Shown here: piece by piece, positions 4,275-50,207 of the stretch
How positions within the stretch are numbered: the first letter of the stretch is position 1
Layout of the letters: every line of letters begins with the position of its first letter
Program-made: the position numbers and the translations under genes
Assembly: GCA_025054955.1 (NCBI GenBank)
Contig: JANWZE010000102.1
Coordinates: 1 to 53,102, forward strand
Reading direction: 5' to 3'
DNA: 53,102 bases
Source: Blastocatellia bacterium
GTDB lineage: Bacteria > Acidobacteriota > Blastocatellia > HR10 > J050
The notes under the pieces: generated by a model
The model's database searches: none
What the model saw: only the letters and a program-made list of their open reading frames with translations
Told to the model about the DNA's origin: nothing

Positions 4275-6443
4275 ATGTCAAAGATCAAACGCACAAGAAA
4301 ATCTGAACAGGCGCAGCACGACCAACCCGGATTGATCGCCCAGCCGGTCTATCCCTTCACCGCAATTGTCGGACAGGAGGAGATGAAGCTGGCGCTCATT
4401 CTGAACGTGATTGACCCGTTGATCGGCGGCGTGCTGATCATGGGACATCGGGGCACAGGCAAATCAACAGCCGTTCGCGCGCTGGCTGATTTGCTGCCGC
4501 CGATTCTCAAGGTCAAGAATTGTCCATACGGATGCGACCCGAACAATCCGGCGTGGCTCTGCTCCGATTGCGTAGCAAAACGTCGCCGCGGCCGTCTGCC
4601 GGTTGTTTCAAGCGCGGTCCCAGTTGTGGAGCTTCCCATCGGCGCAACAGAAGACCGCGTATGTGGAACGCTCAACATTGAGCGTGCTCTCACCACGGGC
4701 GTGCGAGCTTTTGAGCCGGGTTTGCTGGCTCAGGCGAATCGCGGTTTTCTGTATATTGACGAAGTAAATTTGCTAGAGGACCACCTCGTTGATCTGCTGC
4801 TGGATGTGGCAGCCAGCGGACGCAACATCGTTGAACGCGAAGGGATCAGCATAAGCCATCCGGCTCGATTTGTGCTGGTCGGCTCCGGTAATCCCGAAGA
4901 AGGCGAGCTGCGCCCCCAGCTTCTGGACCGATTCGGACTGCACACACACGTGGAAACAATCACCGATGTGGATGCCAGAGTGCAGATCATTCAACGACGG
5001 GAACAATTCGACCAAAATCCTACGAACTTTCGCGCCCAGATGGAGTCGCAGCAAGAACAACTCCGTCAGCAGATCATCCAAGCGCAGCAATTGGTTGGAT
5101 CGGTCACGATTGATCCGGTGCGGCTCCGGCAGATTGCTCAGTTATGTCTCCAGTTAGGCATTGATGGGCATCGGGGCGAGCTGACGATTATGCGCGCTGC
5201 CAAGGCGTTGGCTGCGTTTGATGGTCGCACGAGCGTGTCTGACGAGGACATCAGGGCCGTTGCGCCGATGTCACTGCGTCACCGCTTCCGCAAGGACCCA
5301 CTCGGAGAAATTGACCCTGGCATGCGGATCGAGCGAGCGCTCGACGATTGTTTTCAGGGAGCGCCTCGGGAAAAATCCCAAGCACCAAATCCGAAATTCC
5401 CGCCGGCCGAAAATCCGAAGCACGAAATCCCAAATCCGGAACGTTTCGGATTTCGAGATTCGGACTTGGAATTTCCCTCGAAGAGGGCTTCGGATTTCGA
5501 GATTCGGATGTCGGATTTCCCCCGGCGGGGGTTAGCGAAGCCATCTCGTCGGCGTCGCACAAGCGCATTGAGCCATCAGCATGGACGGGTCGTTGGAACC
5601 GAGCCGACCAAGCCACAAGCTGGTCAAATCGCTTTGACCGCAACGTTGCGCGTGGCCGCGCCGGCTCAGCCGCTAAGGCGACATTCGCGCCAGGAGCGCC
5701 GGCTACGGATCGCGCCGGCTGATCTGCGGTGGAAACGGTTTCGGCATCGCGCAGGCTTGCTCATTATCTTCGTATTGGATGCCAGTGGGAGCATGGCAGC
5801 AAACCGCATTCACCAAGCAAAAGCAGCGGTCATCAGGCTTCTGCAACAGGCTTACATTCACCGAGACCAGGTTGCGCTCATCAGCTTTCGCCACCAGTCG
5901 GCTGATATAATGCTGCCACCCACGCAGAGCGTTGAACGCGCAAAACGCCTCATTGACGCATTGCCGGTTGGCGGCAGCACGCCGCTCGGGGCAGGCTTGC
6001 TCGCAGCCCTGGCTTTGGCCAAACGCGCTGATAGGCGCGGCGCGCGGCCAGCAATGATGGTGATTCTGACCGACGGGCGAGCCAATGTGAGTTCAAGCGG
6101 CCAACCTGACGTATGGGGCGAACTGGAGCGAATCAGCGCTTCATTTGTTAGAGAACGAATTCCCGCGCTGGTCATCAACACGCAGAGCCGATTCTCGCTC
6201 ACCGGTGAAGTGAGCAAACTCGCCGCATGGCTGAACGCGCGATATATCCACTTGCCGCAGCCAACGGCTCAAACCATTTCGGACTCGGTGACGCGCATGG
6301 TCGAATCCGCCCGGCAGGAACTATCGCAAGTCCGTGGCCCGTGGTCCGTAATCCGTGATCCGCAGCCCCTACAGGGAAAATCCGAAGGACCCGAAATCCG
6401 AAACGTTTCGGATTTCGAGATTCGGACTGGGAATTTCCCCTAG
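4275..6443 (+). CDS. bchI-bchD: Magnesium chelatase, fused BchI-BchD (AAA+ and VWA subunits)
   Basis: A 722-residue fusion. The N-terminal AAA+ domain (about 25-360) has Walker A GHRGTGKST (57-65), Walker B FLYIDEVNLL, a sensor strand GSGNPEEGELRPQLLDRFG and a Cys-containing insert (CPYGC..CSDC) like that of some BchI proteins. The C-terminal von Willebrand A domain (about 495-690) has the MIDAS motif DASGS starting at Asp502. With BchH it inserts Mg2+ into protoporphyrin IX using ATP. In-frame repeat A makes up about residues 364-419 in the linker, where a normal BchD has an acidic/Pro-rich linker. Repeats C and A make up about 688-722 and supply the stop. The start follows GAAGAGGG from repeat L1. 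A fused I-D protein is also known as partner of cobaltochelatase CobN, but the neighbouring H subunit is of BchH type. Confidence 0.88.
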   Translation: MSKIKRTRKSEQAQHDQPGLIAQPVYPFTAIVGQEEMKLALILNVIDPLIGGVLIMGHRGTGKSTAVRALADLLPPILKVKNCPYGCDPNNPAWLCSDCVAKRRRGRLPVVSSAVPVVELPIGATEDRVCGTLNIERALTTGVRAFEPGLLAQANRGFLYIDEVNLLEDHLVDLLLDVAASGRNIVEREGISISHPARFVLVGSGNPEEGELRPQLLDRFGLHTHVETITDVDARVQIIQRREQFDQNPTNFRAQMESQQEQLRQQIIQAQQLVGSVTIDPVRLRQIAQLCLQLGIDGHRGELTIMRAAKALAAFDGRTSVSDEDIRAVAPMSLRHRFRKDPLGEIDPGMRIERALDDCFQGAPREKSQAPNPKFPPAENPKHEIPNPERFGFRDSDLEFPSKRASDFEIRMSDFPRRGLAKPSRRRRTSALSHQHGRVVGTEPTKPQAGQIALTATLRVAAPAQPLRRHSRQERRLRIAPADLRWKRFRHRAGLLIIFVLDASGSMAANRIHQAKAAVIRLLQQAYIHRDQVALISFRHQSADIMLPPTQSVERAKRLIDALPVGGSTPLGAGLLAALALAKRADRRGARPAMMVILTDGRANVSSSGQPDVWGELERISASFVRERIPALVINTQSRFSLTGEVSKLAAWLNARYIHLPQPTAQTISDSVTRMVESARQELSQVRGPWSVIRDPQPLQGKSEGPEIRNVSDFEIRTGNFP
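5364..5531. repeat. Repeat A inside bchID (double copy)
   Basis: Two partly overlapping A units within the coding sequence, in frame and without stop codons. They are translated as segments such as NPKHEIPNPERFGFRDSD, between the AAA+ and VWA domains. Confidence 0.85.
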
Positions 6444-6538: not shown

Positions 6539-8404
6539 ATGAATCAGCGTGATCAATTCGTCGAAACGCTCTACGAGAAGCTGCTGGAGATTGAAGGGCG
6601 GCTCATCCCGACCGGATTGCACGTGGTGGGACGCGCGCCGGCAGGGAATAACCTGGTTGACATACTGTGCGCCGTGGCGTCGTTCGACCGCCCTGAGCTG
6701 CAGATTCGGTCGCTTCACGCGCTGGTCGCCGCCGGACTTGGCCTCGATGCTCCCTTCGAGGGAACTCCGAAATCCGAATCTCGAAATCCCAAGCCCTCTT
6801 CGAGGGAAATTCCAAGTCCGAATCTCGAAATCCCAAACGTTTCGGATTTGGGATTTCGTGCTTCGAATTTCCCCCCGCGGGGGCAACAGGTTGAAGCACT
6901 GGTGAAAGCTGGTATTAGCCAGTTTCTAGCCATGCCGGCTGATGATTCGGCTGTTCGGAGCGCGGTTGAGTTCTTTCGACGAGAAGCGTCAGTGCCGCCT
7001 GAGCAATCGGTTCGCGTCTTTCAGTTGCTCCAGCGGATTCGCGTTCACCTGGTTGCCAATCGGGAACTCGATGCGTTGGTTGCCGCGTTGCGTGGCGAAT
7101 ACATCGAACCGGGGCCAGGCGCCGACATTGTGCAAAACCCCGATATTCTGCCGACCGGGCGCAATACCTATGCGGTGAATCCGTACAGCGTCCCCTCACC
7201 GTGGGCGTTTCAGAAATCCGAAGCGGTTGTCACAACTTTGCTCGAACGCTTTCGCCGTGAGCAGGGACGGTTCCCGCAAACGATTGCGATGGTGCTGTGG
7301 GGTATGGACAACATCAAGTCGCAAGGAGAAGGCGTGGCGCAGGCCCTGTGGCTGCTGGGAGTTCGACCGCGACGCGACGCCATGAACCGAGTGGTGGATG
7401 TGGAGGTGATACCACTTGGCCAACTGGGTCGCCCGCGCATTGACGTCGTCATGACGGTGTCAGGCATTTTCCGTGACCTATTCGCTCCCACCATGAATCT
7501 GCTAGACAAAGCCGTGAGAACCGTGGTGGCGCTGGATGAACCGCTCCAGATGAATTTCCCCCGGCAGCATGTCCTAGCACAAGTGCAGCAAGGCGACTCG
7601 TATGAGGAGAGCATGATTCGCGTCTTCTCCAATGCTGCCGGCAACTATGGCACCAATGTTGACTTCATGGTGTTGGACAGTCAGTGGGAATCGGCGCGAG
7701 AGCTGGGCGACTTGTTCGTTACACGCAAAAGTTTCGCTTACGGGCATGGCCTGGAAGGCCGGCCAGCACGTGAGCTGATGGACCGCGCGCTGGCGCGTGT
7801 TGAACTGACGTACCAAAACATTGATAGCTACGAAGTCGGCTTGACCGACGTGGATCACTACTTTGAATATCTGGGCGGCGTCACCCAAGCTGTTGAACAA
7901 CGATCTGGGAAGCGGCCGCGCGTCTTCCTGTGCGATGGACTCGCCATGCAACCGAAAATTCGCTCACTCGAAGAGACATTGAAACTGGAAACAAGGACGA
8001 AAACGCTCAACCCGAAATGGTACGAAGGCATGCTTGAACACGGTTACAGCGGCGTCGCGCAGATTGAGCGGCACGTCAGTAACACATTCGGGTGGAGCGC
8101 CACAACGCGCGCGGTGGAAGATTGGGTTTATGACGAAATTTCCAGCACGTTCCTGCAAGATCCTGGCATGCTCAGCCGTCTTCGCCAGTTGAATCCTCAC
8201 TCGACGCGCGCCCTCGTTGGCCGGTTGCTGGAAGCGCATGGGCGCGGTTTGTGGCAAACTGATCCGCAGGTGATTGAAGACCTGCGCCATATCTATGGAC
8301 AGATCGAAGACGAGCTTGAAGGAGTCAGCAGCCCTCTTCCAGCGAAATCCGAAATCCTAATATCGAAATCCGAAACCCTCTTCCAGCGAAATCCGAAGTC
8401 CTAG
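6539..8404 (+). CDS. bchH: BchH-type Mg chelatase large subunit, C-terminal half
   Basis: 621 residues matching only the second half of BchH. The start MNQRDQFVETLYEKLLEIEG aligns with the region after the middle of normal BchH (WEKLLETEG.LI..GLHVVG). Then come the BchH signatures NPYSVPSPWAFQKSEAV, LWGMDNIKSQGE (Trp254) and SGIFRDLFAPTMNLLD, and near the end NTFGWSATTRAVEDWVYDE. Repeat A is inserted in frame at about 72-115 (translated in part as EIPNVSDLGFRASNF) and again forms the tail from about 599. The start is chosen because GAAGAGGG from a repeat A end precedes it by 4 bases. The N-terminal half is encoded by the next gene. The two products must associate to make a working porphyrin-binding subunit, if this chelatase is active. 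Confidence 0.87.
   Translation: MNQRDQFVETLYEKLLEIEGRLIPTGLHVVGRAPAGNNLVDILCAVASFDRPELQIRSLHALVAAGLGLDAPFEGTPKSESRNPKPSSREIPSPNLEIPNVSDLGFRASNFPPRGQQVEALVKAGISQFLAMPADDSAVRSAVEFFRREASVPPEQSVRVFQLLQRIRVHLVANRELDALVAALRGEYIEPGPGADIVQNPDILPTGRNTYAVNPYSVPSPWAFQKSEAVVTTLLERFRREQGRFPQTIAMVLWGMDNIKSQGEGVAQALWLLGVRPRRDAMNRVVDVEVIPLGQLGRPRIDVVMTVSGIFRDLFAPTMNLLDKAVRTVVALDEPLQMNFPRQHVLAQVQQGDSYEESMIRVFSNAAGNYGTNVDFMVLDSQWESARELGDLFVTRKSFAYGHGLEGRPARELMDRALARVELTYQNIDSYEVGLTDVDHYFEYLGGVTQAVEQRSGKRPRVFLCDGLAMQPKIRSLEETLKLETRTKTLNPKWYEGMLEHGYSGVAQIERHVSNTFGWSATTRAVEDWVYDEISSTFLQDPGMLSRLRQLNPHSTRALVGRLLEAHGRGLWQTDPQVIEDLRHIYGQIEDELEGVSSPLPAKSEILISKSETLFQRNPKS
6752..6883. repeat. Repeat A inside the bchH C-half gene
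   Basis: One and a half A units (two left ends: CCCTTCGAGGG and CCCTCTTCGAGGG; right end CCCCCGCGGGGG) lying in frame in coding sequence. Confidence 0.85.
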
Positions 8405-8463
8405 TATCGAAATCCCAAACGTTTCGGATTTGGAACTTGGTGCTTCGGATTTCCCCGCAGGGG
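8332..8463. repeat. Repeat A between the two bchH halves
   Basis: Begins in the last codons of the C-half gene, supplies its stop and ends (CCCCGCAGGGG) 2 bases before the ATG of the N-half gene. The left end is duplicated (CCCTCTTCCAGCGAAATCCG twice, with slight changes). Confidence 0.85.
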
Positions 8464-8465
8464 CT

Positions 8466-10658
8466 ATGAAGCTCACCGTTTTCTACGTCGGCTCAAGTTT
8501 GCTGGCGCCGCTGATGCGGGCCGAAGTTGACATCAATCAAGCCTTGAATTTAGGCCTGCGGCTGAAGGCTTACAATTGCACACTGCCGATCCGAGATGCT
8601 GATTGGCTGGCCGTAGAGCGTGACATCGCCGAGTCAGATATTATTTTTCTCATCCATGTGACCGATCCGGACAACGCGACTCGCTTGGCTGCTGCACTCG
8701 ACCGGCATCAGGCTCGCCATCATGCAGTTGTTGTCATCAACTGCATGCCCGAGCTGATGCGACGCATGCGCATGGGCCGATTGCGCGGTTCATGGTTCGC
8801 GCCACGTGGCGCACAGGACCGCTCATCAGAGGCGCTCGCCCTGCTGCGGAAGTTGGGAGCCTGGATGTCGCACTTCTCGGTACGCAATGGGAGAAATGGA
8901 GCCCGTCGTGAAAATCAAAGCACAAACCAATACCTCAAATTGGTCGAGTACATTCCTCGCCTGCTTCGCTTTGTTCCTGCAACGGGTCGGCTGAAAGACG
9001 CCAGGCACTACCTTCAGCTCTTTTGCTATTTCATGCAGCCGACACCAACCAATATCCGGCAGATGCTGCTCTATGCGATCAAGCACTACGTTCCGGGTTA
9101 TCACCGTCGAATCACGGTCAGTCCACCCGAGAGTCATCCGGTGGTGGGAATATACCACCCAGATGCTCCGGCACTCTTTCAATCATTCGATGAATACCTT
9201 GCATGGTACAACATGCGGGGGAATCCGAAGCACCAAATTCCAAATCCGAAACGTTTGGGATTTCGAGATTCGGATTTCGGATTTCCCTCGAAGGGGGCTT
9301 TTGATCCTGAGCAGGCCATCGGGTTCCTCTTGCTGCGACCACAACTGATCAGTGGCGCTCATCGGCATTACGATGCCTTGATTCGCGCCTGTGAAGCAGA
9401 GGGCCTTTCTGTTTTACCCATTATCTCGACGCTCATGGATAATCGTCAGGCTGCCCAATCGTTCTTCGTGGACGCCGCCACTGGGCAGCCGCGTGTGAGT
9501 CAGATTGTTTCGCTCACCGGGTTCAGTTTTGTCGGTGGTCCTGGTCGCAATGACAGCGCGGCGGCTGTGGCCTGGCTCGCTGCGCTCAAACGACCGCTGC
9601 GCACTGTCGTGAGCATGGACATGCAAACCATTGAGCAATGGTCAAGCAGTCGAATTGGATTGAACCCGGTGCAGACGACGATGCAAATCGCTATTCCAGA
9701 GATAGACGGAGCGACCGAGCCATTGGTTTTTGCCGGCGTGCCATCAGGCCACGATCAACCGGAACCGATCCCAGAACGAACAGAGCGGATTGCGCGGCGA
9801 TTGTCGCGGTGGAATCGGCTGCAACGATTGCCACGCGCTGCGGTGCGGCTCGGATTCGTCATTTATTGTTTCCCTCCGAACAAAGGGAATGTGGGAACGG
9901 CTGCCGACCTTGACGTGTTCGCCAGCCTGTGGGAAATCTTGCGCCGGTTGCAGGCCGAAGGCTATACCGTGCAAGCGCCGGAATCTCCTGATCAATTGCG
10001 CCACCTGGTGCTGGGGGATGATCACGCGGCTCTCGGCCAGGTGGCTTACCGGCTGCCTGCGGACGAATACTGGCGATTGTGTCCCTACGTTGAAGAGATT
10101 GAAGCTGAGTGGGGCCCTGCCCCCGGCTCGATCAACACGCATGGGAGCGACATCCTTATATACGGCGCTCAATTGGGTCACGTGTTCATCGGGATTCAAC
10201 CGACGTTCGGCTACGAAGGTGATCCAACACGGCTGCTGCTGGCTGAAAGCGGCGCGCCTCACCATGCGTTCATGGGTTTCTACTGTTATCTCAACCACAT
10301 TTTTCGCGCCGATGCGTTGGTGCACGTCGGCACGCATGGGGCACTAGAATTTATGCCCGGCAAACAGGTTGGCCTGTCCGATAGATGTTGGCCTGACCGA
10401 TTGATCGGTGACTTCCCCAACATCTATCTGTACAGTGTGAACAATCCGTCGGAAGGCACGATTGCTAAACGCCGGTCGTATGCCGAGCTGATTTCGTACT
10501 TGACGCCGCCGATGGAAAACGCCGGCCTCTACAAGGAATTGGCCTCACTGAAAGAATTGATCATGGCTTACCGACAATCGCCGGATCGCCATCAGCGCGA
10601 ACAGCTCTACGGGCTAATTGAACAGCAAGCACGCGCGCTTCACCTGGAGAACGACTGA
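8466..10658 (+). CDS. bchH: BchH-type Mg chelatase large subunit, N-terminal half
   Basis: 730 residues matching the first half of BchH. Recognisable parts are the N-terminal domain (LPIRDADWLAVERDIAESDI), LLRFVPATGRLKDARHYLQ, VSLTGFSFVGGPGRNDSAAA, PEIDGATEPLVFAG, FCFPPNKGN-like VIYCFPPNKGNVGTAADL, QPTFGYEGDPTRLL and VGTHGALEFMPGKQ (His624, Glu628), then NPSEGTIAKRRSYAELISYL. It ends at EQLYGLIEQQARALHL, just where the upstream gene picks up in a normal BchH. Together the halves cover a full-length BchH with no obvious gap. Repeat A is inserted in frame at about 251-278. The ATG directly follows the repeat end; the AGGGG is only 2 bases away, so the ribosome site is weak. Confidence 0.88.
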   Translation: MKLTVFYVGSSLLAPLMRAEVDINQALNLGLRLKAYNCTLPIRDADWLAVERDIAESDIIFLIHVTDPDNATRLAAALDRHQARHHAVVVINCMPELMRRMRMGRLRGSWFAPRGAQDRSSEALALLRKLGAWMSHFSVRNGRNGARRENQSTNQYLKLVEYIPRLLRFVPATGRLKDARHYLQLFCYFMQPTPTNIRQMLLYAIKHYVPGYHRRITVSPPESHPVVGIYHPDAPALFQSFDEYLAWYNMRGNPKHQIPNPKRLGFRDSDFGFPSKGAFDPEQAIGFLLLRPQLISGAHRHYDALIRACEAEGLSVLPIISTLMDNRQAAQSFFVDAATGQPRVSQIVSLTGFSFVGGPGRNDSAAAVAWLAALKRPLRTVVSMDMQTIEQWSSSRIGLNPVQTTMQIAIPEIDGATEPLVFAGVPSGHDQPEPIPERTERIARRLSRWNRLQRLPRAAVRLGFVIYCFPPNKGNVGTAADLDVFASLWEILRRLQAEGYTVQAPESPDQLRHLVLGDDHAALGQVAYRLPADEYWRLCPYVEEIEAEWGPAPGSINTHGSDILIYGAQLGHVFIGIQPTFGYEGDPTRLLLAESGAPHHAFMGFYCYLNHIFRADALVHVGTHGALEFMPGKQVGLSDRCWPDRLIGDFPNIYLYSVNNPSEGTIAKRRSYAELISYLTPPMENAGLYKELASLKELIMAYRQSPDRHQREQLYGLIEQQARALHLEND
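9216..9297. repeat. Repeat A inside the bchH N-half gene
   Basis: One A unit in frame (centre CCGAAACGTTTGGG, right end CCCTCGAAGGGGG). It is translated as GNPKHQIPNPKRLGFRDSDF in the linker between two BchH subdomains. Confidence 0.87.
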
Positions 10659-11357: not shown

Positions 11358-12005
11358 TTGTCAGATATGGAACAACTGCAGCCTTCGAGCATTGCCACAG
11401 AGCACACATCTGGGCAAACTCCTCAACCAAAGCCGTCTACCACTGTGCCGGCCAAGACAGCCAAGCCTGCGACGCGAGCCGCGACAGAGGCGACTGAGGA
11501 ATCGAGCAAGAATGCGTCAGCGTCGCCCATTGCCAAAGCCCGCCGGCGCTTCACATGGACCTTTGTGGCCGGGTTTCTGGCGGCAAACTTTCTGATGTTT
11601 TTGCGCTTTTTCTTTCCTCGCGCCCTGTTTGAGCCAAGCCCAGTGTTCCGCATTGGATCGCCATCAGATTTCAACTTGGGTGTTGATGAGCGCTTCAAGG
11701 AAGCCTACCGCGTGTGGGTTGTGCGTCAGCCGGATAAGTTGTTCGTGATTTACGCGCGCTGTACCCATCTGGGTTGCACGCCCAACTGGAACGAAAGCGA
11801 GAAGAAATTCAAATGTCCCTGCCACGGGAGCGGCTTCGATATTGAAGGCATCAACTTTGAAGGTCCGGCGCCGCGCCCATTAGATCGGGCGCACATCGAG
11901 CTGGATGCAACAGGTCAGATCGTCGTCAACACGAGCCGCCTCTATAAGTGCCCACCCGGTGAACCGTGTGGGTTTGAGACGGAGGGCTCGTTTCTGGTTG
12001 TGTGA
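11358..12005 (+). CDS. petC: Rieske iron-sulfur protein of a cytochrome bc/b6f-type complex
   Basis: 215 residues starting at TTG (GGGAG lies 5 bases upstream; the next ATG at 11367 is too far from it). A disordered Pro/Thr/Ala-rich N-terminus is followed by a membrane anchor (about 69-89, FTWTFVAGFLAANFLMFLRF). The soluble [2Fe-2S] domain has CTHLGC (Cys135, His137, Cys140) and CPCHGSGF (Cys153, Cys155, His156). It passes electrons from quinol oxidation to a cytochrome c-type carrier. It heads the Rieske-cytochrome b-subunit IV gene set. The extra Cys pair near the C-terminus (YKCPPGEPCG) is unusual. Confidence 0.95.
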   Translation: MSDMEQLQPSSIATEHTSGQTPQPKPSTTVPAKTAKPATRAATEATEESSKNASASPIAKARRRFTWTFVAGFLAANFLMFLRFFFPRALFEPSPVFRIGSPSDFNLGVDERFKEAYRVWVVRQPDKLFVIYARCTHLGCTPNWNESEKKFKCPCHGSGFDIEGINFEGPAPRPLDRAHIELDATGQIVVNTSRLYKCPPGEPCGFETEGSFLVV

Positions 12006-12121: not shown

Positions 12122-13033
12122 ATGGAACCGGACGGCAAGAATGTACCAAAGAGCGGCGTTGGCCTGATTGATCAGGTCCGTCAAGACGCGGAGTTGCTGA
12201 AACAGAAATACGAAGAGGAAATCGCTCTTCGGAAAGCTGATCTAGAGGACCCGCAAAACACACAGCTTTGGAAATCCATCTTTCGGGTCAAGCACGAGCG
12301 CTATGACCCGCGCACTCGTTCGCTGGCCGTCCTCTCGAATGTGTTTCTTCATTTGCATCCGGCGCGCATCAATCGCGATGCGGTCCGTTACGGGTTCACC
12401 TGGGGCATGGGCGGCATCACGTTTTATCTGTTCATTGTGCTCACGTGGACAGGTGTGTTGTTGATGTTCTATTACCATCCGTCGAAGGTGGTGGCCTTTC
12501 GTGACATTCTCTACCTGGCGCACGATGTTCCATTCGGTCGGTTGCTCAGGAATATGCACCGATGGGCGGCTCACTTGATGGTGATCACGACGTGGCTGCA
12601 CATGTTCCGTGTGGTCATGACCGGCTCCTATAAGAAGCCGCGTGAGTTCAATTGGTGCGTTGGTGTGGTGCTACTTGTGCTGACCATGTTGCTGTCGTTC
12701 ACCGGTTACTTGTTGCCCGATGATCAGCTCGGTTTCTGGGCTGTGACCGTGGGGACCAATATGGCTCGCGCCACACCGTTGCTGGGTCACGAAGGGCCGT
12801 TCGGACCTCAACTGGGGATGACGCCATACAATGATGTGCGATTCGCGCTTCTTGGCGGTTCGATTGTGGATTCCAACGCGCTGCTGCGGGCTTACATCTG
12901 GCATTGCATTGCGATTCCGCTGTTCGCCGCGATCCTGATGGCTGTGCATTTCTGGCGCGTGCGCAAAGATGGCGGCATTTCTGGTCCGGCGCCCGTCATG
13001 CTGGAATCGGAGATGAAACCGGAGAAAAAGTGA
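12122..13033 (+). CDS. petB: Cytochrome b, b6-type N-terminal subunit
   Basis: 303 residues with a soluble N-terminal extension of about 80, then four core helices. Haem ligands are His146 and His160 in HRWAAHLMVITTWLH (14 apart), and His261 and His276 in HCIAIPLFAAILMAVH (15 apart). The extra residue in the second pair is the cytochrome b6 pattern, not the mitochondrial bc1 pattern. The C-terminal helices are on the next gene, as in b6f and many Gram-positive and Nitrospira-like complexes. It forms the quinol-oxidising core with the Rieske protein. I see no Cys suited to the extra b6f haem. Confidence 0.93.
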   Translation: MEPDGKNVPKSGVGLIDQVRQDAELLKQKYEEEIALRKADLEDPQNTQLWKSIFRVKHERYDPRTRSLAVLSNVFLHLHPARINRDAVRYGFTWGMGGITFYLFIVLTWTGVLLMFYYHPSKVVAFRDILYLAHDVPFGRLLRNMHRWAAHLMVITTWLHMFRVVMTGSYKKPREFNWCVGVVLLVLTMLLSFTGYLLPDDQLGFWAVTVGTNMARATPLLGHEGPFGPQLGMTPYNDVRFALLGGSIVDSNALLRAYIWHCIAIPLFAAILMAVHFWRVRKDGGISGPAPVMLESEMKPEKK

Positions 13034-13145: not shown

Positions 13146-14147
13146 ATGATGGCTGAAGGGTTGTGGAATTTATCACCGACCGCCGTTCCAATAGCCCTGC
13201 TGTTGGGGATCAAGCAGCTTTGGGAGATTCTCACCCTACCGGACAATATTCCGATTGCTGCGCTGGCCATTCTCGTGCCGTTTTATACCTGGCTGGCCGT
13301 CCGTCAAGCCAGACAGACTGACCGCCTCATTGAGCAACTGGAAGCTGACAAGGAATTGGCCAAGACGCATCACCGCAAAATCTATCCGTTCAAGCAAGGC
13401 TGGGCGCGCGAGCTGCCGGTTTGGCCATACCTGCTGCGCGTGGAATTCCTCGCGTTCATCATTGTGACGCTGATTTTGATGGTCTGGTCTATCACGCTTG
13501 ACGCTCCCTTGGAGGAACCGGCCAATGCCAGTTTGACCCCGTTGACCTCGAAGGCGCCTTGGTACTTTGTCGGGCTACAAGAGATGCTGGTCTATTTCGA
13601 TCCCTGGTTTGCCGGCGTCGTTCTGCCCACGCTGTTGATCATCGGCCTGATGGTGTTTCCGTACGTGGACTCCAATCCGCTAGGCTCGGGCTACTACACC
13701 ATCAAACAGCGGAAGGTCGCCATCCTGAGTTTTGGGGCCGGCTTCTTTATCTGGCTGATGTTGGTGTTTATCGGCACGTTCATGCGTGGCCCCGGTTGGT
13801 TGTGGTTTTGGCCCGGCCAGACCTGGGACCATAGCATGGTGGTCTATGAGGTGAATCGGAATTTACCCGATCTGTTCCCCGACTTCATCGGCCAGACGGT
13901 CATCGGACGAATTGTGATCGGCGTGGTGGCCATCGCGCTCTTCTACGCCGTGTCCGGCTGGGCTATTCATCGCTGGGTCACACGCACCGAGTTCGATCGA
14001 AAGATTTTCGCGCGCACAAGTCTGTTGCAGTACCTGACATTTCAGTTCTTCGCCATTACCGTTCTGATCGGCTTGCCCGCAAAGATGATTTTGCGGCTTG
14101 TTTTCCGGATCAAGTATGTGCTGGTGTCGCCGTGGTTGAACATTTAA
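13146..14147 (+). CDS. petD: Cytochrome b C-terminal/subunit-IV-like protein
   Basis: 333 residues, about seven membrane helices, longer than b6f subunit IV (about 160). The quinol-site motif appears as KAPWYFVGLQEML, so Glu of the classic PEWY is missing; such PWY variants are known in menaquinol-using complexes. The following FDPWFAGVVLPTLLIIGLMVFPYVD fits the subunit IV core. The extra C-terminal helices carry no haem c motif. The start MMAEG follows GGAGGAG; ATG at 13149 is an alternative. It partners with the upstream cytochrome b. Confidence 0.88.
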   Translation: MMAEGLWNLSPTAVPIALLLGIKQLWEILTLPDNIPIAALAILVPFYTWLAVRQARQTDRLIEQLEADKELAKTHHRKIYPFKQGWARELPVWPYLLRVEFLAFIIVTLILMVWSITLDAPLEEPANASLTPLTSKAPWYFVGLQEMLVYFDPWFAGVVLPTLLIIGLMVFPYVDSNPLGSGYYTIKQRKVAILSFGAGFFIWLMLVFIGTFMRGPGWLWFWPGQTWDHSMVVYEVNRNLPDLFPDFIGQTVIGRIVIGVVAIALFYAVSGWAIHRWVTRTEFDRKIFARTSLLQYLTFQFFAITVLIGLPAKMILRLVFRIKYVLVSPWLNI

Positions 14148-15770: not shown

Positions 15771-15859
15771 CCCCTTCGAGGGAAATCCGAAGCATGAAAT
15801 CCGAAATTCGAAACGTTTGGGATTTCGAGATTCGGATTTCGGATTTCCCTGGAAGAGGG
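15771..15859. repeat. Repeat A between ctaB and ctaC
   Basis: CCCCTTCGAGGG to CCCTGGAAGAGGG. The ctaC ribosome site GAGGAGG starts 5 bases further on. Confidence 0.85.
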
Positions 15860-40901: not shown

Positions 40902-43646
40902 ATGATGAAGCGAGAAAATGGCCAACGGCGTAGAGTAACTGATTTCTTGATAACTCTTGCCATCGTGCTTGCTTTGTTCGAGTCGGTGAGTGGCCAACCA
41001 AGCGGTGAAATTCGTGGGCAGATCACCGACCCGACCGGCGCTGCATTATCAGGGGCATTGGTCTCCGTCAAGAACCTCGCTACTGAGTTAGAACAAGAGG
41101 CGATCACCGATAGTGCTGGCCGATTTGTTTTTGGCGGGATTTCGATTGGCATCTATCGCGTCAAGGTTCAGCTGACAGGCTTTTCTGACGCGGCGCGGAC
41201 CGTGACGTTGGCTGAGCCTGGCGAGGTGCTCGAAGTGAATTTTGAGATCGCGCCGGGCAGTATTGCTGAGACAGTGACGGTGACGGCCAGTCGTGGTGAG
41301 CGCGATGTGCTGGAGGTGCCGGTTCGCGCTTCTGTGCAATTGGAGGAGATCATTCATCGTGAGAATCCGGCGACCACCGGAGATGTTTTATTGAGCTTGC
41401 CCAGTTTGACGCCGGTCAACAGTGGTCCGTACTTGGTGCGGCCGCGCCTACGCGGTTTGGATTCGACGCGCCTTGTGTTGATGGTTGATGGCGAGCGGCT
41501 GAACACCGCGCGGGTGGCCACCGACCGCGCAGGCCCAGAATTAGGGCTGGTTGATCCAAGTCAGGTCCAGTCCATCGAGGTCGTGCATGGGGCTGGCTCG
41601 GCGCTGTATGGCACGGATGCGCTCTCAGGAACAATCAACGTGATTACGGATATGCCTGAGCCGACCGACCGACGGTTCAGAGTTGGTGGGAGCTTTAACG
41701 GCTTTTTCAGTTCCAATGAGATTGCGCGGCGGGGCACGGGCAAACTGGACATCGCCGGTCGCAAGTTCGCTGTCAGAACCTCTCTGATGTTGGAGCGGTT
41801 TCCCAACTACAACGCGGGGCGACCGTACGGTGAGTCTTCTGTGCCTGTCATTCAGCCGGTCACGGTCTTTAGCGACACGGCAACCACGAATCCGGCGGTG
41901 CTTGTTCCTCCGCCGGGGCGGGTCATTCAGCAGATCCTGCTCGGAATTGCTCCAGACCCGTTCAATGCGCCGTTTACGCGCACGAGCTCAGAAATTCCTA
42001 ACTCGCAGTCGCACGGCAGCAATCTCAGCCTGACGGGGCGCATCTTTCCTGCGACAGGTCACTCGATTCGACTGCGGTTAACCCAGCGTCGCACGTCATT
42101 CATCGGGTTCCCAGACTTCAAGCAGCCGACCTTTTTCCAGGTCATCAATCTTCCGTTTAGCGATTTGGACAAGGCGAGCCTGCGGTATGACGGGTCTGGT
42201 TTTTCGTCGTGGTTGACGCGAATTTCTGGTGGCGGTTACTGGCAGGATCAAGACCGTCTGCTGCGAAATGATTTTACGGTTCTCGGCGTAAGCCCCGTTG
42301 CCGACATCCCGAATCGTGATAATCTGACGCGCGTTTCTGTTTTGAGCAATACTCGTCAGAACGTGAAATCATTCGGGTTTAATGCGAACGCTGGGTTGTT
42401 AGTGGCGGGCAAGAATGTGCTCACGGTGGGCATGGATTTCTTCCGCGATCACAGTCGAGACACGCGCACAACCATGACGCGGGTTGAAATCATTGGGCAG
42501 GGCGACCGCGTGACAAGGCGAGCGCGGCTTTTCTCAACGCCGAGCGTCATTGTTCCCAGCGCGATCAGTCAACCGCAGCGCGTGCCGATTGCCAGGTTTC
42601 GTAACGCTGCCTTTTTTGTCGAGGATGAGCTGGAGGTCAACCGTTGGTTGCGACTGCTGGGCAGTTTCCGTGTGGATCGCATCAAGGTGGAAACCCTCCC
42701 GACTGTCGGATACGTTCCGCGCATCCCCAACGCAGACCCGCCGTTTGATCCGGAGACGTTTCCTGCTGCCGGGGGGGATACGATCAGCAGAACGGCATAC
42801 ACCGGCAATTTTGGTTTTGTCCTTCGGCCGCGCGATGTGCTCAGCGTGACAGCCCGCATTGGCCGAAGTTTCCGTCATCCGAACCTCGAAGAACTATTGT
42901 TTTATGGGCCTGCCACCATTGGGGCAATCGTGCCGAATCTGAAGGTCAAGCCGGAGCAGGGCGTCAATCTGGACATTGGGGCGAAGCTGCGCACGGCGCG
43001 GCTGGCCGGCGAGTTCACCTACTTCAACAACACGTTCACCAACTTCATCTCGACTGAAATTGTCACGGTCGCCAAGGATGACGCCGAGTTTGCCAATGGA
43101 AGCCCGATTTCGCAAGCTGGCAACTTCCTATCCAGGCTCCGCATTCAAGGCATCGAGGCGAATCTGGAGCTGCCTATATCCTATCGCACCACGGTCTTCA
43201 CCTGGTTTGGGAATTTGCATTACTTGCATGGTGAAATCCTGCGCGGCAAGACGGCTCTGAGGACAACATCGGGCATTCGCGAAGTGGACATTGACGGCGC
43301 GCCAGCGGACAACATTTCTCCGTTCAAGTCGGTGCTCGGCGTGCGCTGGAATGACGGCCCGTTCCGCTACTGGTGGGAGTATAACGTTCGTATTCAGACG
43401 CGCGTGAATCGGGTTTCGCCGTTCATCCTGGAGTCTCCGTTTTTGATCCCGCAAGACCTATTCGGTTTGTATGGATTCAGCGTTCACACGGCGCGGGCCG
43501 GATATAACTTCAATCGCGAGCGGTACACATTAAGCCTCTCGGTCGCGCTCGAAAATCTTGGGAATAAATTTTATCGCGAGCACTTTCAGTTTGCGCCGGC
43601 GCGCGGCCGTAGTTTGACGATCGGAGTAAATTACCGGTTTTTCTAA
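40902..43646 (+). CDS. TonB-dependent outer-membrane receptor 1
   Basis: 914 residues from MMKRENGQRRRVTDF. A signal peptide (cleavage near SVSGQ) is followed by a carboxypeptidase-regulatory-like domain (about 30-120: IRGQITDPTGAALSGALVSV, SAGRFVFGGISIGIYRVKV) and a plug domain with VRPRLRGLDSTRLVLMVDGE and VHGAGSALYGTDALSGTINV. The rest is a 22-strand barrel ending in aromatic Phe (NYRFF). This is the SusC/CirA-like arrangement common in Acidobacteriota. The ligand is unknown. The paralogue at 47535 shares the plug motifs almost word for word. Confidence 0.94.
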   Translation: MMKRENGQRRRVTDFLITLAIVLALFESVSGQPSGEIRGQITDPTGAALSGALVSVKNLATELEQEAITDSAGRFVFGGISIGIYRVKVQLTGFSDAARTVTLAEPGEVLEVNFEIAPGSIAETVTVTASRGERDVLEVPVRASVQLEEIIHRENPATTGDVLLSLPSLTPVNSGPYLVRPRLRGLDSTRLVLMVDGERLNTARVATDRAGPELGLVDPSQVQSIEVVHGAGSALYGTDALSGTINVITDMPEPTDRRFRVGGSFNGFFSSNEIARRGTGKLDIAGRKFAVRTSLMLERFPNYNAGRPYGESSVPVIQPVTVFSDTATTNPAVLVPPPGRVIQQILLGIAPDPFNAPFTRTSSEIPNSQSHGSNLSLTGRIFPATGHSIRLRLTQRRTSFIGFPDFKQPTFFQVINLPFSDLDKASLRYDGSGFSSWLTRISGGGYWQDQDRLLRNDFTVLGVSPVADIPNRDNLTRVSVLSNTRQNVKSFGFNANAGLLVAGKNVLTVGMDFFRDHSRDTRTTMTRVEIIGQGDRVTRRARLFSTPSVIVPSAISQPQRVPIARFRNAAFFVEDELEVNRWLRLLGSFRVDRIKVETLPTVGYVPRIPNADPPFDPETFPAAGGDTISRTAYTGNFGFVLRPRDVLSVTARIGRSFRHPNLEELLFYGPATIGAIVPNLKVKPEQGVNLDIGAKLRTARLAGEFTYFNNTFTNFISTEIVTVAKDDAEFANGSPISQAGNFLSRLRIQGIEANLELPISYRTTVFTWFGNLHYLHGEILRGKTALRTTSGIREVDIDGAPADNISPFKSVLGVRWNDGPFRYWWEYNVRIQTRVNRVSPFILESPFLIPQDLFGLYGFSVHTARAGYNFNRERYTLSLSVALENLGNKFYREHFQFAPARGRSLTIGVNYRFF

Positions 43647-43692: not shown

Positions 43693-45201
43693 ATGTTACG
43701 AGCAAAGTCCTCAATGTCGCGAGCAAACCCATTCCAGAGAAATCCCAAGCACGAAATCCGAAATCCCAAATGTTTCGGATTTCGGATTTGGGATTTCGGA
43801 TTTCCCCTGGCAGGGGCTGTAGTGGGTTTTGCGCTCTCCGTGTGTGTTGCGTTGATGGTCACGCTCATCGCCGCTGTAAGAGCTACTCAGCCGACGGAGT
43901 CGCCGATCAAGGTTGATATTGCTTCGTACTTCCCGATCGAGCTGGGTCGCACGTGGACCTATACGTGGCACGTGCAGTTTGCTGATGGGCGTAAAGAGAT
44001 GGTGATTCGAACCAGGAGCTTTGAAGGGCCTGAGCTTCTGCCCAGCGGTTATGCTTACAAGTTCATCAGCGACTTAGGCGATTACACCTACTGGTCGGTG
44101 CAGAACAAGCAGTTGCTGCTGCACGGCGTGATTGAGCCTCATCGCAATATTCGGCTGATGCTCTCGCCGCCGGTTGCAGTCTATTCGCCTGAGCAGGCGG
44201 TTGGTCGGCCTTTGTCCACGACCCGCACAACCGATGATGGCGCGGGGACACAGACGTGGACGACCACGATCGAGGGATTTGAAGACGTCGCTACCCCGAT
44301 GGGCGTTTTTAAGAACTGCTTGAAAATCCGCCTTGAGATGAGCGGTCCGACAGGGCGCACCAAAGCGGTTTACGCTTATGCAAAACAGATGGGGCTCGTC
44401 GCCTCCAGTTATCAAGCGTGGATTGGCAACCGGCAGCAGCCGGAGCTTACGGTTCAATCGGCGCTGAAACTGGCCGAGGTGGCAGGTCGCAGCGTTTCCT
44501 CGGTGGAGCAATGGGAGAAAGTCCTGGCTGCGCCGATAGTCGCCGCGGCGCCGGCCGATGATCCAGAAGCGCGCAAAGTGTTTCAACAGGCTTATGAGCG
44601 GTTATACCGCTGGCCCGCGTCGTTTGCTGGATTTCAGGCAGACTTCCTACTGAAGCGTCGAGAAGGCGATCAGCCAATGGTCGGCTCAGTGGTGGTGACG
44701 CCCGACTACAAGGTCAAGGTTCAATGCGCTGACAAGCAGGCCGCCCAGATGGTTGAACATGAAATGGTGCAGGTCGTCACGCATTTGAAGCCCAGGCCTT
44801 TCGCCTCTGAGTTTCAGGGCGCTACATTCACCTTTGGCGACCGCGATCCAAACTTGGGCGCCCGAGTGGACGTCACAGGCGGCGCCTCGCGAGCGCGGAG
44901 TTTTCGCACCAAGGATGGCGAGATTACGCAAATTGCCCACTCGTTCGGTCGGATTCGCTTTCTGGCCAATCATACCAGCTACATGAAGACGCACGAGCGG
45001 AGTTTAATTCCGACCGCTTTTAGCATTACCTACTATTCCAACGAGACGGATCAGGTGATTAGTTACACCGAGTTTCGGGACGAGTACGCGCAGGTCGGGA
45101 ACTTCTGGCTTCCGCGTCGCCGGATAAAGACTGAAACGCTGAAAGACAAGACAACGCAACTGGAGATTGAACTCACGAATCATCACGTGCACAACAAATA
45201 G
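43693..45201 (+). CDS. Exported protein with a DUF3386-like domain and an in-frame repeat
   Basis: 502 residues. Repeat A encodes about residues 13-41 (NPKHEIRNPKCFGFRIWDFG), followed by a membrane/signal helix (VVGFALSVCVALMVTLIAAV). Part 1 (about 75-260) is beta-rich: YFPIELGRTWTYTWHV, VFKNCLKIRLEMSGP. Part 2 (about 292-495) resembles cyanobacterial DUF3386: KVFQQAYERLYRWPASFAGF, LIPTAFSITYYSNET and FWLPRRRIKTET. GAGGG lies 7 bases before the ATG. Function unknown; the position between two TonB receptors suggests an envelope or uptake role. Confidence 0.72.
   Translation: MLRAKSSMSRANPFQRNPKHEIRNPKCFGFRIWDFGFPLAGAVVGFALSVCVALMVTLIAAVRATQPTESPIKVDIASYFPIELGRTWTYTWHVQFADGRKEMVIRTRSFEGPELLPSGYAYKFISDLGDYTYWSVQNKQLLLHGVIEPHRNIRLMLSPPVAVYSPEQAVGRPLSTTRTTDDGAGTQTWTTTIEGFEDVATPMGVFKNCLKIRLEMSGPTGRTKAVYAYAKQMGLVASSYQAWIGNRQQPELTVQSALKLAEVAGRSVSSVEQWEKVLAAPIVAAAPADDPEARKVFQQAYERLYRWPASFAGFQADFLLKRREGDQPMVGSVVVTPDYKVKVQCADKQAAQMVEHEMVQVVTHLKPRPFASEFQGATFTFGDRDPNLGARVDVTGGASRARSFRTKDGEITQIAHSFGRIRFLANHTSYMKTHERSLIPTAFSITYYSNETDQVISYTEFRDEYAQVGNFWLPRRRIKTETLKDKTTQLEIELTNHHVHNK
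43728..43816. repeat. Repeat A inside the DUF3386-like gene
   Basis: CATTCCAGAGAAATCC to CCCCTGGCAGGGG, centre CCAAATGTTTCGG. It lies in frame between the start codon and the signal helix. Confidence 0.85.
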
Positions 45202-47518: not shown

Positions 47519-47534
47519 TTTTTGGAGTTTGTCT

Positions 47535-50207
47535 ATGAAACAGCTACGCCTCGCTGTTTGGTACTCTCTGCTAGTGGTATTGCTCTGTCCGTTATGCGCG
47601 GTTGCGCAGCCGAGTGGGCAGATATACGGGCGACTGGTAGACCCCAATGGAGCGGCCGTCGTAGGTGCCACGGTCACTCTGCAAAACATCGCCACTGGAG
47701 CAGTCATAGAGGCATTCTCTGATGCTGCGGGCCGCTACGAATTCACTGGCGTTGTCATTGGTATTTATCGCGTTCGCGTCAAAGCTGTGGGATTTTCAGA
47801 AGTCAGTCGGCAGGTGGAAATAAGCGAACCAGGTGAATCGTCGGAGGTCAATTTTGATCTGTATGCTGGCCGACTAACCGAAGAAGTCACCGTGACGGCC
47901 ACACGCGGCGAACGAGACGCATTGAGCGTGCCCGTGCGCACCGAGACGCTCGATGAAACCGTCTTAGCACGGCAAAACGTCGCCGGCACGGGCGATGCGT
48001 TGTTGAACATACCGAATCTGACGCCGGTCAATAGCGGCCCATATCTAGTGCGACCGCGCCTGCGAGGATTTGATTCGACGCGCCTGCTTATATTGGTGGA
48101 TGGTGAGCGATTGAACAACTCGCGCACATCCACCGGCGCAGCCGGCGTGGAAGTCGGCCTTATTGATCCAAGCTTGATTGAGACGGTCGAGATCGTGCAT
48201 GGCGCCGGCTCAGCCTTGTACGGCACGGATGCGTTGTCTGGCACTATCAACATCCTGACGCAGTCACCCCAGCCGATCAAGGATGGCTTCCGTGTGGGAG
48301 GCAGTTTCACCGGCTATTACAGCAGCAACGAGCCGGGCCGACGTGGCACAGCCCGATTGGATGTTGCAGGACGGCGGTTCGCCACGCGACTGTCTGGCAT
48401 GCTCGAACGGTTTGCCAATTATCATGCGGGACGCCCATTCAACGAGTCAAACATCCCGCTGATTCAGGCTGGCACTATTCGCCACGTGACCTATGGCCCA
48501 ATTCCCGATAACTTCAACGAGCCATTTGTCAGAACCAGCTCGGAGATTCCTAACTCGCAGGTTCATGGCAACAGCCTGAATGCAGTCAGCCGGTTCTTCT
48601 TTTCCGAGCGGCAGTCACTGAAGGCGACGTGGCTGCGGCGTCGCGCTCTTGATATTGGCTTTCCCGATTTTACGCCGCCGTATTTCTTCCAGAATATTCG
48701 GCTGCCCATCAGCAAGCTCGATAAAGCCAGCATGCGTTACGAAGTGACCGGACTGGCGCCATGGTTCAGTCGGTTAGCTGCCGGCGGCTACTGGCAGCAT
48801 CAAGATCGGCAGTTGGCCACCGACTTTTTCGTGCTGTCGCGCAGCGAGCCGCGGCCGGGCGACCCACCGTTTGACACGCTCACGCGCGTGGACATTGCCA
48901 GCGATACAGGGCAAAACGTCAAAAGCTGGGGCTATGATATACAGGCTAATTTTCTGCTCGGCACAAAGAACCTGCTGACAGCCGGCTCCAGCCTCTTTTA
49001 CGATCACAGCAAGGACTTTCGTCAGGTTATTGTAGACGTCACGCAACTGGGCTTGCTGACCCGGCCGCCGCGTCCTGTTCGGTTTATCTCGTTGCCGGCG
49101 GCGATTGTCCGCGGCGCGGCCAGTTTCGAGCAGCGCGTGCCGATCTCAAATTTCCAGAACCTCGCCTTCTTCGTTCAAGACGAACATGAGCTGAGCGCCG
49201 CGCTTCGTGTGATTGGCAGCCTGCGGGTAGATCGCTTCGACATTGATTCGCGCCAGACCCCCAACTACAATCCTCGCCCGCGCCGATTGGGATGCGCGCG
49301 CCCGCCTGTTGATCCTGGGACCGTTCCACCCATTGAAGGCATCCGGTTCACTCGAACGACTGTCACAGGCGATGGTGGCGTCGTCTACCGCGTGAAGCCA
49401 TCTGTCAGTTTGACGGCGCGAGTAGGTCGCAGCTATCGCCACCCGAATCTGTCGGAGCTCTTCTTCTCCGGGCCGGCTGAAGCTGGCACGCTCGTGCCCA
49501 ACATTGATCTCCGGCCGGAGACGGGCATCAACGTTGACGTGGGAGCCAAAGTGCGGCTGCCTCGGTTCAGCGGCTCGCTGACCTACTTCCATAATCGCTA
49601 TCGTGACTTTCTCTCCCGTCAACCTGTGGCGGCCTGCCGACCCGAAGATATTCAAGACCCGGCCGACGCTGATCTGGTGGGCACGATTTATCAAGCGCTG
49701 AACTTTTCTCGCGTGCGCATCCAGGGCGTAGAGGCCAGCAGCGAGCTGCCCTTTGAGGCGGTTTCGTCGTTTTTCTCGCTGTTTGTTGACTTCAGCTATT
49801 TGCATGGCGTGGTGATTGAAGGGCAGAACCCGCTGGCCCAAACCCGGCTTGAAAATGCGCCAGCCAACAATATCACCCCTGCCAAGTTCGTTGGCGGCTT
49901 GCGATGGAATGATCGCTCTGGCCGGCTGTGGGGTGAGTATTCGTTTCGCTCCCAATTGCATGTTCATCGTGTCTCACCGATCCTGTTTACCTCTCCGCTG
50001 TTGCAAGCGCCCGATCTATGGAACCTCAACGGTTTCACCATTCACACGGTGCGAGCTGGTGTAGAGCTGATTGAGCGCGAACGATCTCGCGTCAGTGTGA
50101 CGCTTGCGATGGAGAACCTTGGCAACAAGTTTTACCGTGAACAGTTTCAGTATGCCCCGGCCCGTGGTCGCAGTTTCACGCTTGGTCTCACACTCAAGTA
50201 TTTTTAA
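47535..50207 (+). CDS. TonB-dependent outer-membrane receptor 2
   Basis: 890 residues from MKQLRLAVWYSLLVVLL, GGAG seven bases upstream. Signal peptide (cleavage near CAVAQ), regulatory-like domain (QIYGRLVDPNGAAVVGATVT), plug (TPVNSGPYLVRPRLRGFDST, VHGAGSALYGTDALSGTINI) and a barrel ending in LTLKYF. It is a clear paralogue of the receptor at 40902: plug and final strands (ENLGNKFYREQFQYAPARGR) are nearly the same, while the barrel loops differ, which suggests related but different ligands or partners. A loop with CARPPVDPG and CRPEDIQD has two cysteines likely to pair. Confidence 0.93.
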   Translation: MKQLRLAVWYSLLVVLLCPLCAVAQPSGQIYGRLVDPNGAAVVGATVTLQNIATGAVIEAFSDAAGRYEFTGVVIGIYRVRVKAVGFSEVSRQVEISEPGESSEVNFDLYAGRLTEEVTVTATRGERDALSVPVRTETLDETVLARQNVAGTGDALLNIPNLTPVNSGPYLVRPRLRGFDSTRLLILVDGERLNNSRTSTGAAGVEVGLIDPSLIETVEIVHGAGSALYGTDALSGTINILTQSPQPIKDGFRVGGSFTGYYSSNEPGRRGTARLDVAGRRFATRLSGMLERFANYHAGRPFNESNIPLIQAGTIRHVTYGPIPDNFNEPFVRTSSEIPNSQVHGNSLNAVSRFFFSERQSLKATWLRRRALDIGFPDFTPPYFFQNIRLPISKLDKASMRYEVTGLAPWFSRLAAGGYWQHQDRQLATDFFVLSRSEPRPGDPPFDTLTRVDIASDTGQNVKSWGYDIQANFLLGTKNLLTAGSSLFYDHSKDFRQVIVDVTQLGLLTRPPRPVRFISLPAAIVRGAASFEQRVPISNFQNLAFFVQDEHELSAALRVIGSLRVDRFDIDSRQTPNYNPRPRRLGCARPPVDPGTVPPIEGIRFTRTTVTGDGGVVYRVKPSVSLTARVGRSYRHPNLSELFFSGPAEAGTLVPNIDLRPETGINVDVGAKVRLPRFSGSLTYFHNRYRDFLSRQPVAACRPEDIQDPADADLVGTIYQALNFSRVRIQGVEASSELPFEAVSSFFSLFVDFSYLHGVVIEGQNPLAQTRLENAPANNITPAKFVGGLRWNDRSGRLWGEYSFRSQLHVHRVSPILFTSPLLQAPDLWNLNGFTIHTVRAGVELIERERSRVSVTLAMENLGNKFYREQFQYAPARGRSFTLGLTLKYF

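Follow-up and report, generated by a model that had tools for sequence, protein, structure and literature searches.

Genes and features of the locus

The window, by which we mean the whole stretch of DNA that was analysed, is a contig of 53,102 bases from a genome of 4.69 Mb (99.5% complete, 152 contigs). It carries two neighbouring genes which, judged by their sequences, each encode the half of a BchH-type H subunit that the other lacks. In magnesium chelatase, the H subunit is the protein with the buried active site. A gene for a fused motor protein lies upstream, genes of the Rieske-cytochrome b type lie downstream, and copies of a palindromic repeat are interspersed. The features are as follows.

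4275..6443, + strand: bchID, a BchI-like AAA+ domain fused to a BchD/CobT-like VWA domain (integrin I, MIDAS DASGS), 722 aa
6539..8404, + strand: bchH-C, C-terminal half of the H subunit (native ChlH about 741-1331), with the H1174 equivalent in LTDVDHYFEYLGG
6768..6859, no strand assigned: repeat copy in frame in bchH-C, giving extra residues in a variable region
8343..8453, no strand assigned: repeat copy covering the end of bchH-C (its last approximately 20 residues) and the short gap before bchH-N
8466..10658, + strand: bchH-N, N-terminal half of the H subunit (native ChlH about 36-727), with the H621/E625 and E660 equivalents
9242..9285, no strand assigned: repeat copy in frame in bchH-N
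11367..12005, + strand: Rieske protein (PF00355), conserved downstream in 11 of 16 split loci
12122..13033, + strand: cytochrome b N-terminal or b6-like subunit (PF00033), conserved downstream in 10 of 16 loci
13146..14147, + strand: cytochrome b C-terminal or subunit IV-like protein (PF00032), conserved downstream in 9 of 16 loci
5387-5519, 15783-15847 and 43752-43804: further repeat copies, with about a dozen more elsewhere

The sequence-only reading had taken the two genes for halves of BchH, the C-terminal half standing upstream, and this was borne out by the models NF009140 and TIGR02025 and by alignment to ChlH. The products of bchH-C and bchH-N comprise 621 and 730 aa, respectively, and neither reaches the length of about 1200-1330 aa expected of a single-polypeptide BchH/ChlH. 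The bchH-C product matches positions 723-1311 of NF009140 and 698-1271 of TIGR02025, and the bchH-N product matches the N-terminal half alone (24-709 and 1-691). Either half singly remains below the cut-offs, whereas the halves summed reach 1442 bits against a cut-off of 1300 for NF009140 and 1369 against 829 for TIGR02025. The head domain DUF3479, which is of the BchH type, was found in the split H subunit. As the only matches of PF02514 in the whole genome are the two halves, no intact bchH is present elsewhere in it. AlphaFold models of the separate halves were of low confidence (pLDDT 62); a Foldseek search with these models returned ChlH as the top match for both, which added little to the sequence match.

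When aligned to the solved structure of ChlH (4zhj), the bchH-N product spans residues 36-727 and the bchH-C product begins at residue 741. These native numbers are the 4zhj chain numbers minus the 20-residue tag; on this count E660 falls, as it should, in the NNPSE motif. The break falls within residues 728-740, a linker of about 13 unconserved residues, and involves neither gap nor overlap. The concatenate of N and C from the window lacks 12 of 1205 core columns, in agreement with the earlier claim that the two genes cover the subunit without an evident gap, and large missing or overlapping parts were not seen on alignment to ChlH. Domain IV of ChlH has been described as an insertion in domain III (PMC12583661), and domains III and V meet at A942 (PMC5098175), so the break probably lies near the start of the helical domain IV. 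The C protein probably holds most of domain IV, the end of domain III, and domains V and VI. The initial placement of the break between two domains was approximately right, but the position is a loop at the edge of or inside domain IV and probably not a clean boundary.

With regard to the catalytic site, the porphyrin of ChlH is held between domain III on one side and domains V/VI on the other (PMC12583661, PMC5098175). Catalytic roles have been assigned to H621, E625, E660 and H1174, of which H621, E660 and H1174 aim at the chelating nitrogens (PMC13297055). The equivalents of H621 and E625 (in VGTHGALEF) and of E660 (in NNPSEGT) are located on the N protein and that of H1174 on the C protein. 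All four are invariant in 21 of 21 cases, and the signatures recognised at the outset are thus intact in both halves. Since the catalytic residues are divided between two proteins, an active site would be possible only in a complex of N and C. The active-site loop of the H subunit, TDVDHYFEYLGG, nearly equals the loop DIDHYYEYLGG of Chloracidobacterium and Chloroflexi BchH and is unlike that of CobN.

About 18 copies of the palindromic repeat, with the core AAACGTTTCGGATTTC, are present in the window, where GAAATCCGAA occurs 48 times, on both strands. The repeat brings to mind the Rickettsia palindromic elements. Several copies are read in frame within genes, including all three chelatase genes. 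The presence of a copy exactly at 8343-8453 could suggest that the two genes arose from an assembly or frameshift artefact at 8.4 kb. This explanation is refuted, with a probability that we consider negligible, because numerous other assemblies show the same C-then-N order, and in these the genes often overlap by 4 nt, which leaves no space for the repeat. An assembly join at 8.4 kb, which the sequence-only reading had named as fatal to its proposal, is thereby excluded. For the same reason, namely that members of the clade share the break with a 4-nt overlap, the repeat is not the cause of the split.

Distribution, origin and selection

The split form is present in many soil bacteria of the acidobacterial class Blastocatellia, which are seemingly non-photosynthetic. 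A scan of 162 genomes of this class was carried out with the C half only, and the N half was confirmed in 21 loci, not in all of the matching genomes. The C half matched 52 of the 162 genomes. In 44 of them, distributed over three families (f1, f4 and f5), it is of the split form, with an open frame of at most 655 aa. The remaining eight constitute family f6, Chloracidobacterium-like phototrophs, in which the frame is unsplit (1291-1329 aa) in seven cases and interrupted by a contig end in one.

A C-half scan of 84,980 species genomes yielded at least 15 acidobacterial loci at 59-65% identity, followed, among the matches listed, by cyanobacteria and Chloroflexota at 51% or less. The swapped order first noticed in the window recurs in these related genomes: in all 15 acidobacterial loci listed, the C half precedes the N half, both genes being read from one strand, and in most the two are adjacent. 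The non-acidobacterial loci among the matches listed are single-chain in 64 of 65 cases, the other being truncated by a contig end. Within a sample of 396 genomes of the phylum, the high-scoring split form was confined to the class of the window, and no open frame fusing C to N was found. A fused or permuted intermediate was found neither in the 162 class genomes nor in the 396 phylum genomes, and a trace of duplication is likewise absent, the break being clean and non-overlapping. Candidate routes to the swapped order are a tandem duplication in which the outer halves were lost, a circular permutation followed by fission, and a fission combined with rearrangement. Most of the genomes are draft metagenome assemblies, and absences are called on 10-18 genomes with named controls. 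A description of a split bchH was not found in the open-access papers searched.

All 21 concatenates of N and C share the same break point and form one clade (SH-aLRT 100). This clade is separate from the BchH of cyanobacteria, Chloroflexota, proteobacteria and Chloracidobacterium in a quick tree in which long branches were flagged and the deep order is unsettled. The trees of the C and N halves are broadly congruent, with patristic distances correlated at r = 0.90 and 10 of 18 splits in common. The two genes overlap by 4 nt in eight of the 19 linked pairs, which suggests translational coupling. In two genomes of one genus (G017 and G025), the halves lie on different contigs and both are retained, so that they evidently persist as separate genes. 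Their new neighbours are alike in the two genomes, with the C half by family 35 and the N half by families 36 and 37.

Pairwise dN/dS ranged from 0.05 to 0.21 for the C half and from 0.07 to 0.17 for the N half, with dS saturated for several pairs, and both halves are under purifying selection. Together with the intact signatures, this fits the earlier judgement that both halves are apparently functional. The genes might instead be relics of a lost phototrophy, fragmenting and decaying. Chloracidobacterium, which belongs to the same class, is phototrophic and has BchL adjoining an intact bchH, and none of the ten split genomes tested gave a match to BchM or BchL over the cut-off, the controls and Chloracidobacterium being positive and the f6 genomes tested having both over the cut-off. 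Nevertheless, the identical break, the intact frames, the invariant catalytic residues, the dN/dS near 0.1 and the retention in 44 genomes of three families contradict decay, and we consider this explanation highly improbable.

Motor, neighbourhood and possible function

The bchID sequence includes a Walker A motif (GHRGTGKST) in addition to the MIDAS motif and scores over the cut-off for both TIGR02030 (BchI, 526.9 bits) and TIGR02031 (BchD, 511 bits). A BchI/BchD partner was found in the window, as a fused I-D protein, and in most split genomes checked; I and D are separate in most f4 genomes and in L036, sometimes on other contigs. Proteins of TIGR02442, annotated as 'putative cobaltochelatase', typically have AAA and VWA fused in one subunit, which could point to a split CobN cobaltochelatase for vitamin B12; bchID itself scores 693.8 bits with this model, which is below its cut-off. 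The H halves, however, score only 394.9 + 266.4 bits against a CobN cut-off of 1468 and 375.4 + 250.2 against 822, far below the BchH models, and they possess the BchH-type head domain. In addition, none of the 18 genomes tested had the corrin-ring enzyme CbiC/CobH, for which seven control genomes were positive. A split CobN is thus largely refuted, and we hold it to be very unlikely. Given that BchM, BchL and CbiC are absent in the split genomes tested, bacteriochlorophyll and B12 are both unlikely products.

The explanation that we regard as probable overall is an H subunit that was split once, whose halves assemble, and which is driven by the motor towards a product other than bacteriochlorophyll. 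An ancestral BchH-type H subunit would have been broken once, in the loop near the start of domain IV, resulting in a C-half gene followed by an N-half gene. The two products would combine to form a single H subunit, and only in this complex would the porphyrin cavity be complete, the N protein supplying the H621/E625/E660 face and the C protein the H1174 face. The fused BchI-BchD protein encoded upstream would drive H with ATP, as in magnesium and cobalt chelatases. The reaction would be a metal change in a porphyrin. In the genomes with I and D, we thus envisage a putative ATP-driven metal-porphyrin chelatase, for which the insertion of magnesium into protoporphyrin IX is the simplest choice of metal and substrate, and one that we propose tentatively.

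As the host is seemingly non-photosynthetic, the product would be used for something other than bacteriochlorophyll, and that the genes are conserved where the following steps of bacteriochlorophyll synthesis are missing suggests that a metalloporphyrin is employed in some way not yet described. The chelatase complex has no known structure (PMC13297055); the natural split, which puts the two faces of the active site on separate proteins, offers a ready tool to dissect substrate entry and closure.

Ferrochelatase (hemH) was found in the other nine split genomes tested. In the genome of the window, 99.5% complete as it is, neither hemE nor hemH was found, and a relative (G001) has both, close together; the absence is probably a local assembly gap. 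A replacement of ferrochelatase by the split protein was considered and rejected, as the genome of the window also lacks hemE and the nine other genomes have hemH.

In four genomes (G053, G402 and those of L043 and L044), the search for BchI/BchD gave nothing above the background of the chelatase-free genome G011. Three or four of these genomes form one clade: all four group together in the C and joint trees, and the N tree puts L042 elsewhere, with weak support. Their H halves differ at only three of the 276 positions conserved elsewhere (control groups: 0-2) and count as no more altered than those of the controls. Because these genomes keep the H halves without BchI/BchD, ATP-driven insertion cannot be the universal role. 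The group is the strongest hint that H acts without ATP in some lineages, and it raises the question of whether the fold can do so, as reported for HmuS.

The main rival explanation is accordingly a two-subunit, HmuS-like protein that handles porphyrins or removes their metal, with a dispensable motor and a haem-related role reflected in its cytochrome neighbours. The haem de-chelatase HmuS, a homologue of the class I chelatases, needs no ATP for its activity (PMC12583661), and the hardly altered H halves of the motor-less genomes would agree with such a role. So would the gene neighbourhood, since the split genes often precede Rieske-cytochrome b genes and, in f5, are also found after divergent ccm genes. 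On the other hand, I and D are kept in most split genomes checked, the halves score best on BchH models and not on CobN/HmuS, and the methionine-rich insertion of HmuS was not seen in the alignments. The Rieske/ccm neighbourhood is, moreover, present without the chelatase in G011. We consider the HmuS-like explanation unlikely, although it is the most serious of the alternatives.

The loci L193 (G402) and L194 (G011) belong to the same genus and exhibit the same order of Rieske/cytochrome b, glutaredoxin-like and ccm genes. The split chelatase lies between Rieske/cytochrome b and ccm in G402 only and is missing in G011, which makes this site a clean presence/absence comparison for what the chelatase adds. 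In the f4 genomes, the chelatase is located elsewhere, away from Rieske/cytochrome b. Given these two observations, the link to the respiratory chain is suggestive at most. Two related genes for TonB-dependent receptors (40905-43643 and 47529-50204), about 4 kb apart in the window, have no evident link to the chelatase.

To return to the motor-driven chelatase, its broadest form would be a class-wide, BchH-type two-subunit enzyme for a metalloporphyrin reaction that belongs to neither the chlorophyll nor the B12 nor the haem-uptake pathway. It would possibly be tied to the respiratory cytochrome b complex encoded beside it in part of the class, and in one lineage it would act without its AAA+ motor. 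We advance this broader version with reserve, as a possibility that falls somewhat short of probable.

Comparison with known chelatases

According to a 2025 survey, sequences of the superfamily that are far from the few characterised anchors are mostly not reliably annotatable (PMC12583661). Other members of the family were also encountered in Acidobacteriota. L010 (G037:C88) is a CobN/Mg-chelatase family protein of 1627 aa with the motif SLDHVYEFMGG, near the published HmuS signature, and its host is an acidobacterium, outside the Bacteroidota. L003-L008 represent a second full-length family protein of Chloracidobacterium, in which D takes the place of H1174 and which clusters with CobN, not with BchH.

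The split proteins most likely constitute a two-subunit class I chelatase. They resemble HmuS (PDB 9d26) in that HmuS is an H-like protein of class I whose action does not involve I/D, which would also have to hold for the split proteins of the motor-less genomes. In contrast, HmuS is a single membrane-anchored chain with a methionine-rich insertion in domain IV, and its similarity to the split proteins is distant. A large insertion and an hmu-like gene order were not seen at the split loci. With CobN and its fused ChlID-like subunit (TIGR02442), they share the class I chelatase fold and the AAA-VWA fused motor of the window, but CobN has its own loop, DSDDYYQFEGG, the split proteins score lower with it, and the split hosts are without the corrin pathway. 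The BchH of Chloracidobacterium, from the same class, has 39-45% identity and the nearly shared loop noted above. It differs as a single chain of 1275-1278 aa whose gene adjoins bchL in a phototroph, and it is not the direct parent in the tree.

Synechocystis ChlH (PDB 4zhj/6ysg) has in common with the split form the DUF3479 head, the CobN/Mg-chelatase body and the residues H621, E625, E660 and H1174, and, as for BchH/ChlH, a BchI/BchD-type motor is encoded nearby in many genomes. Unlike BchH/ChlH, the split form consists of two polypeptides encoded in swapped order, its hosts are apparently without bacteriochlorophyll synthesis, and four genomes are motor-less. The split form thus has the fold and the residues of BchH but departs from it in its division into two genes of reversed order and in hosts that are apparently not phototrophic.
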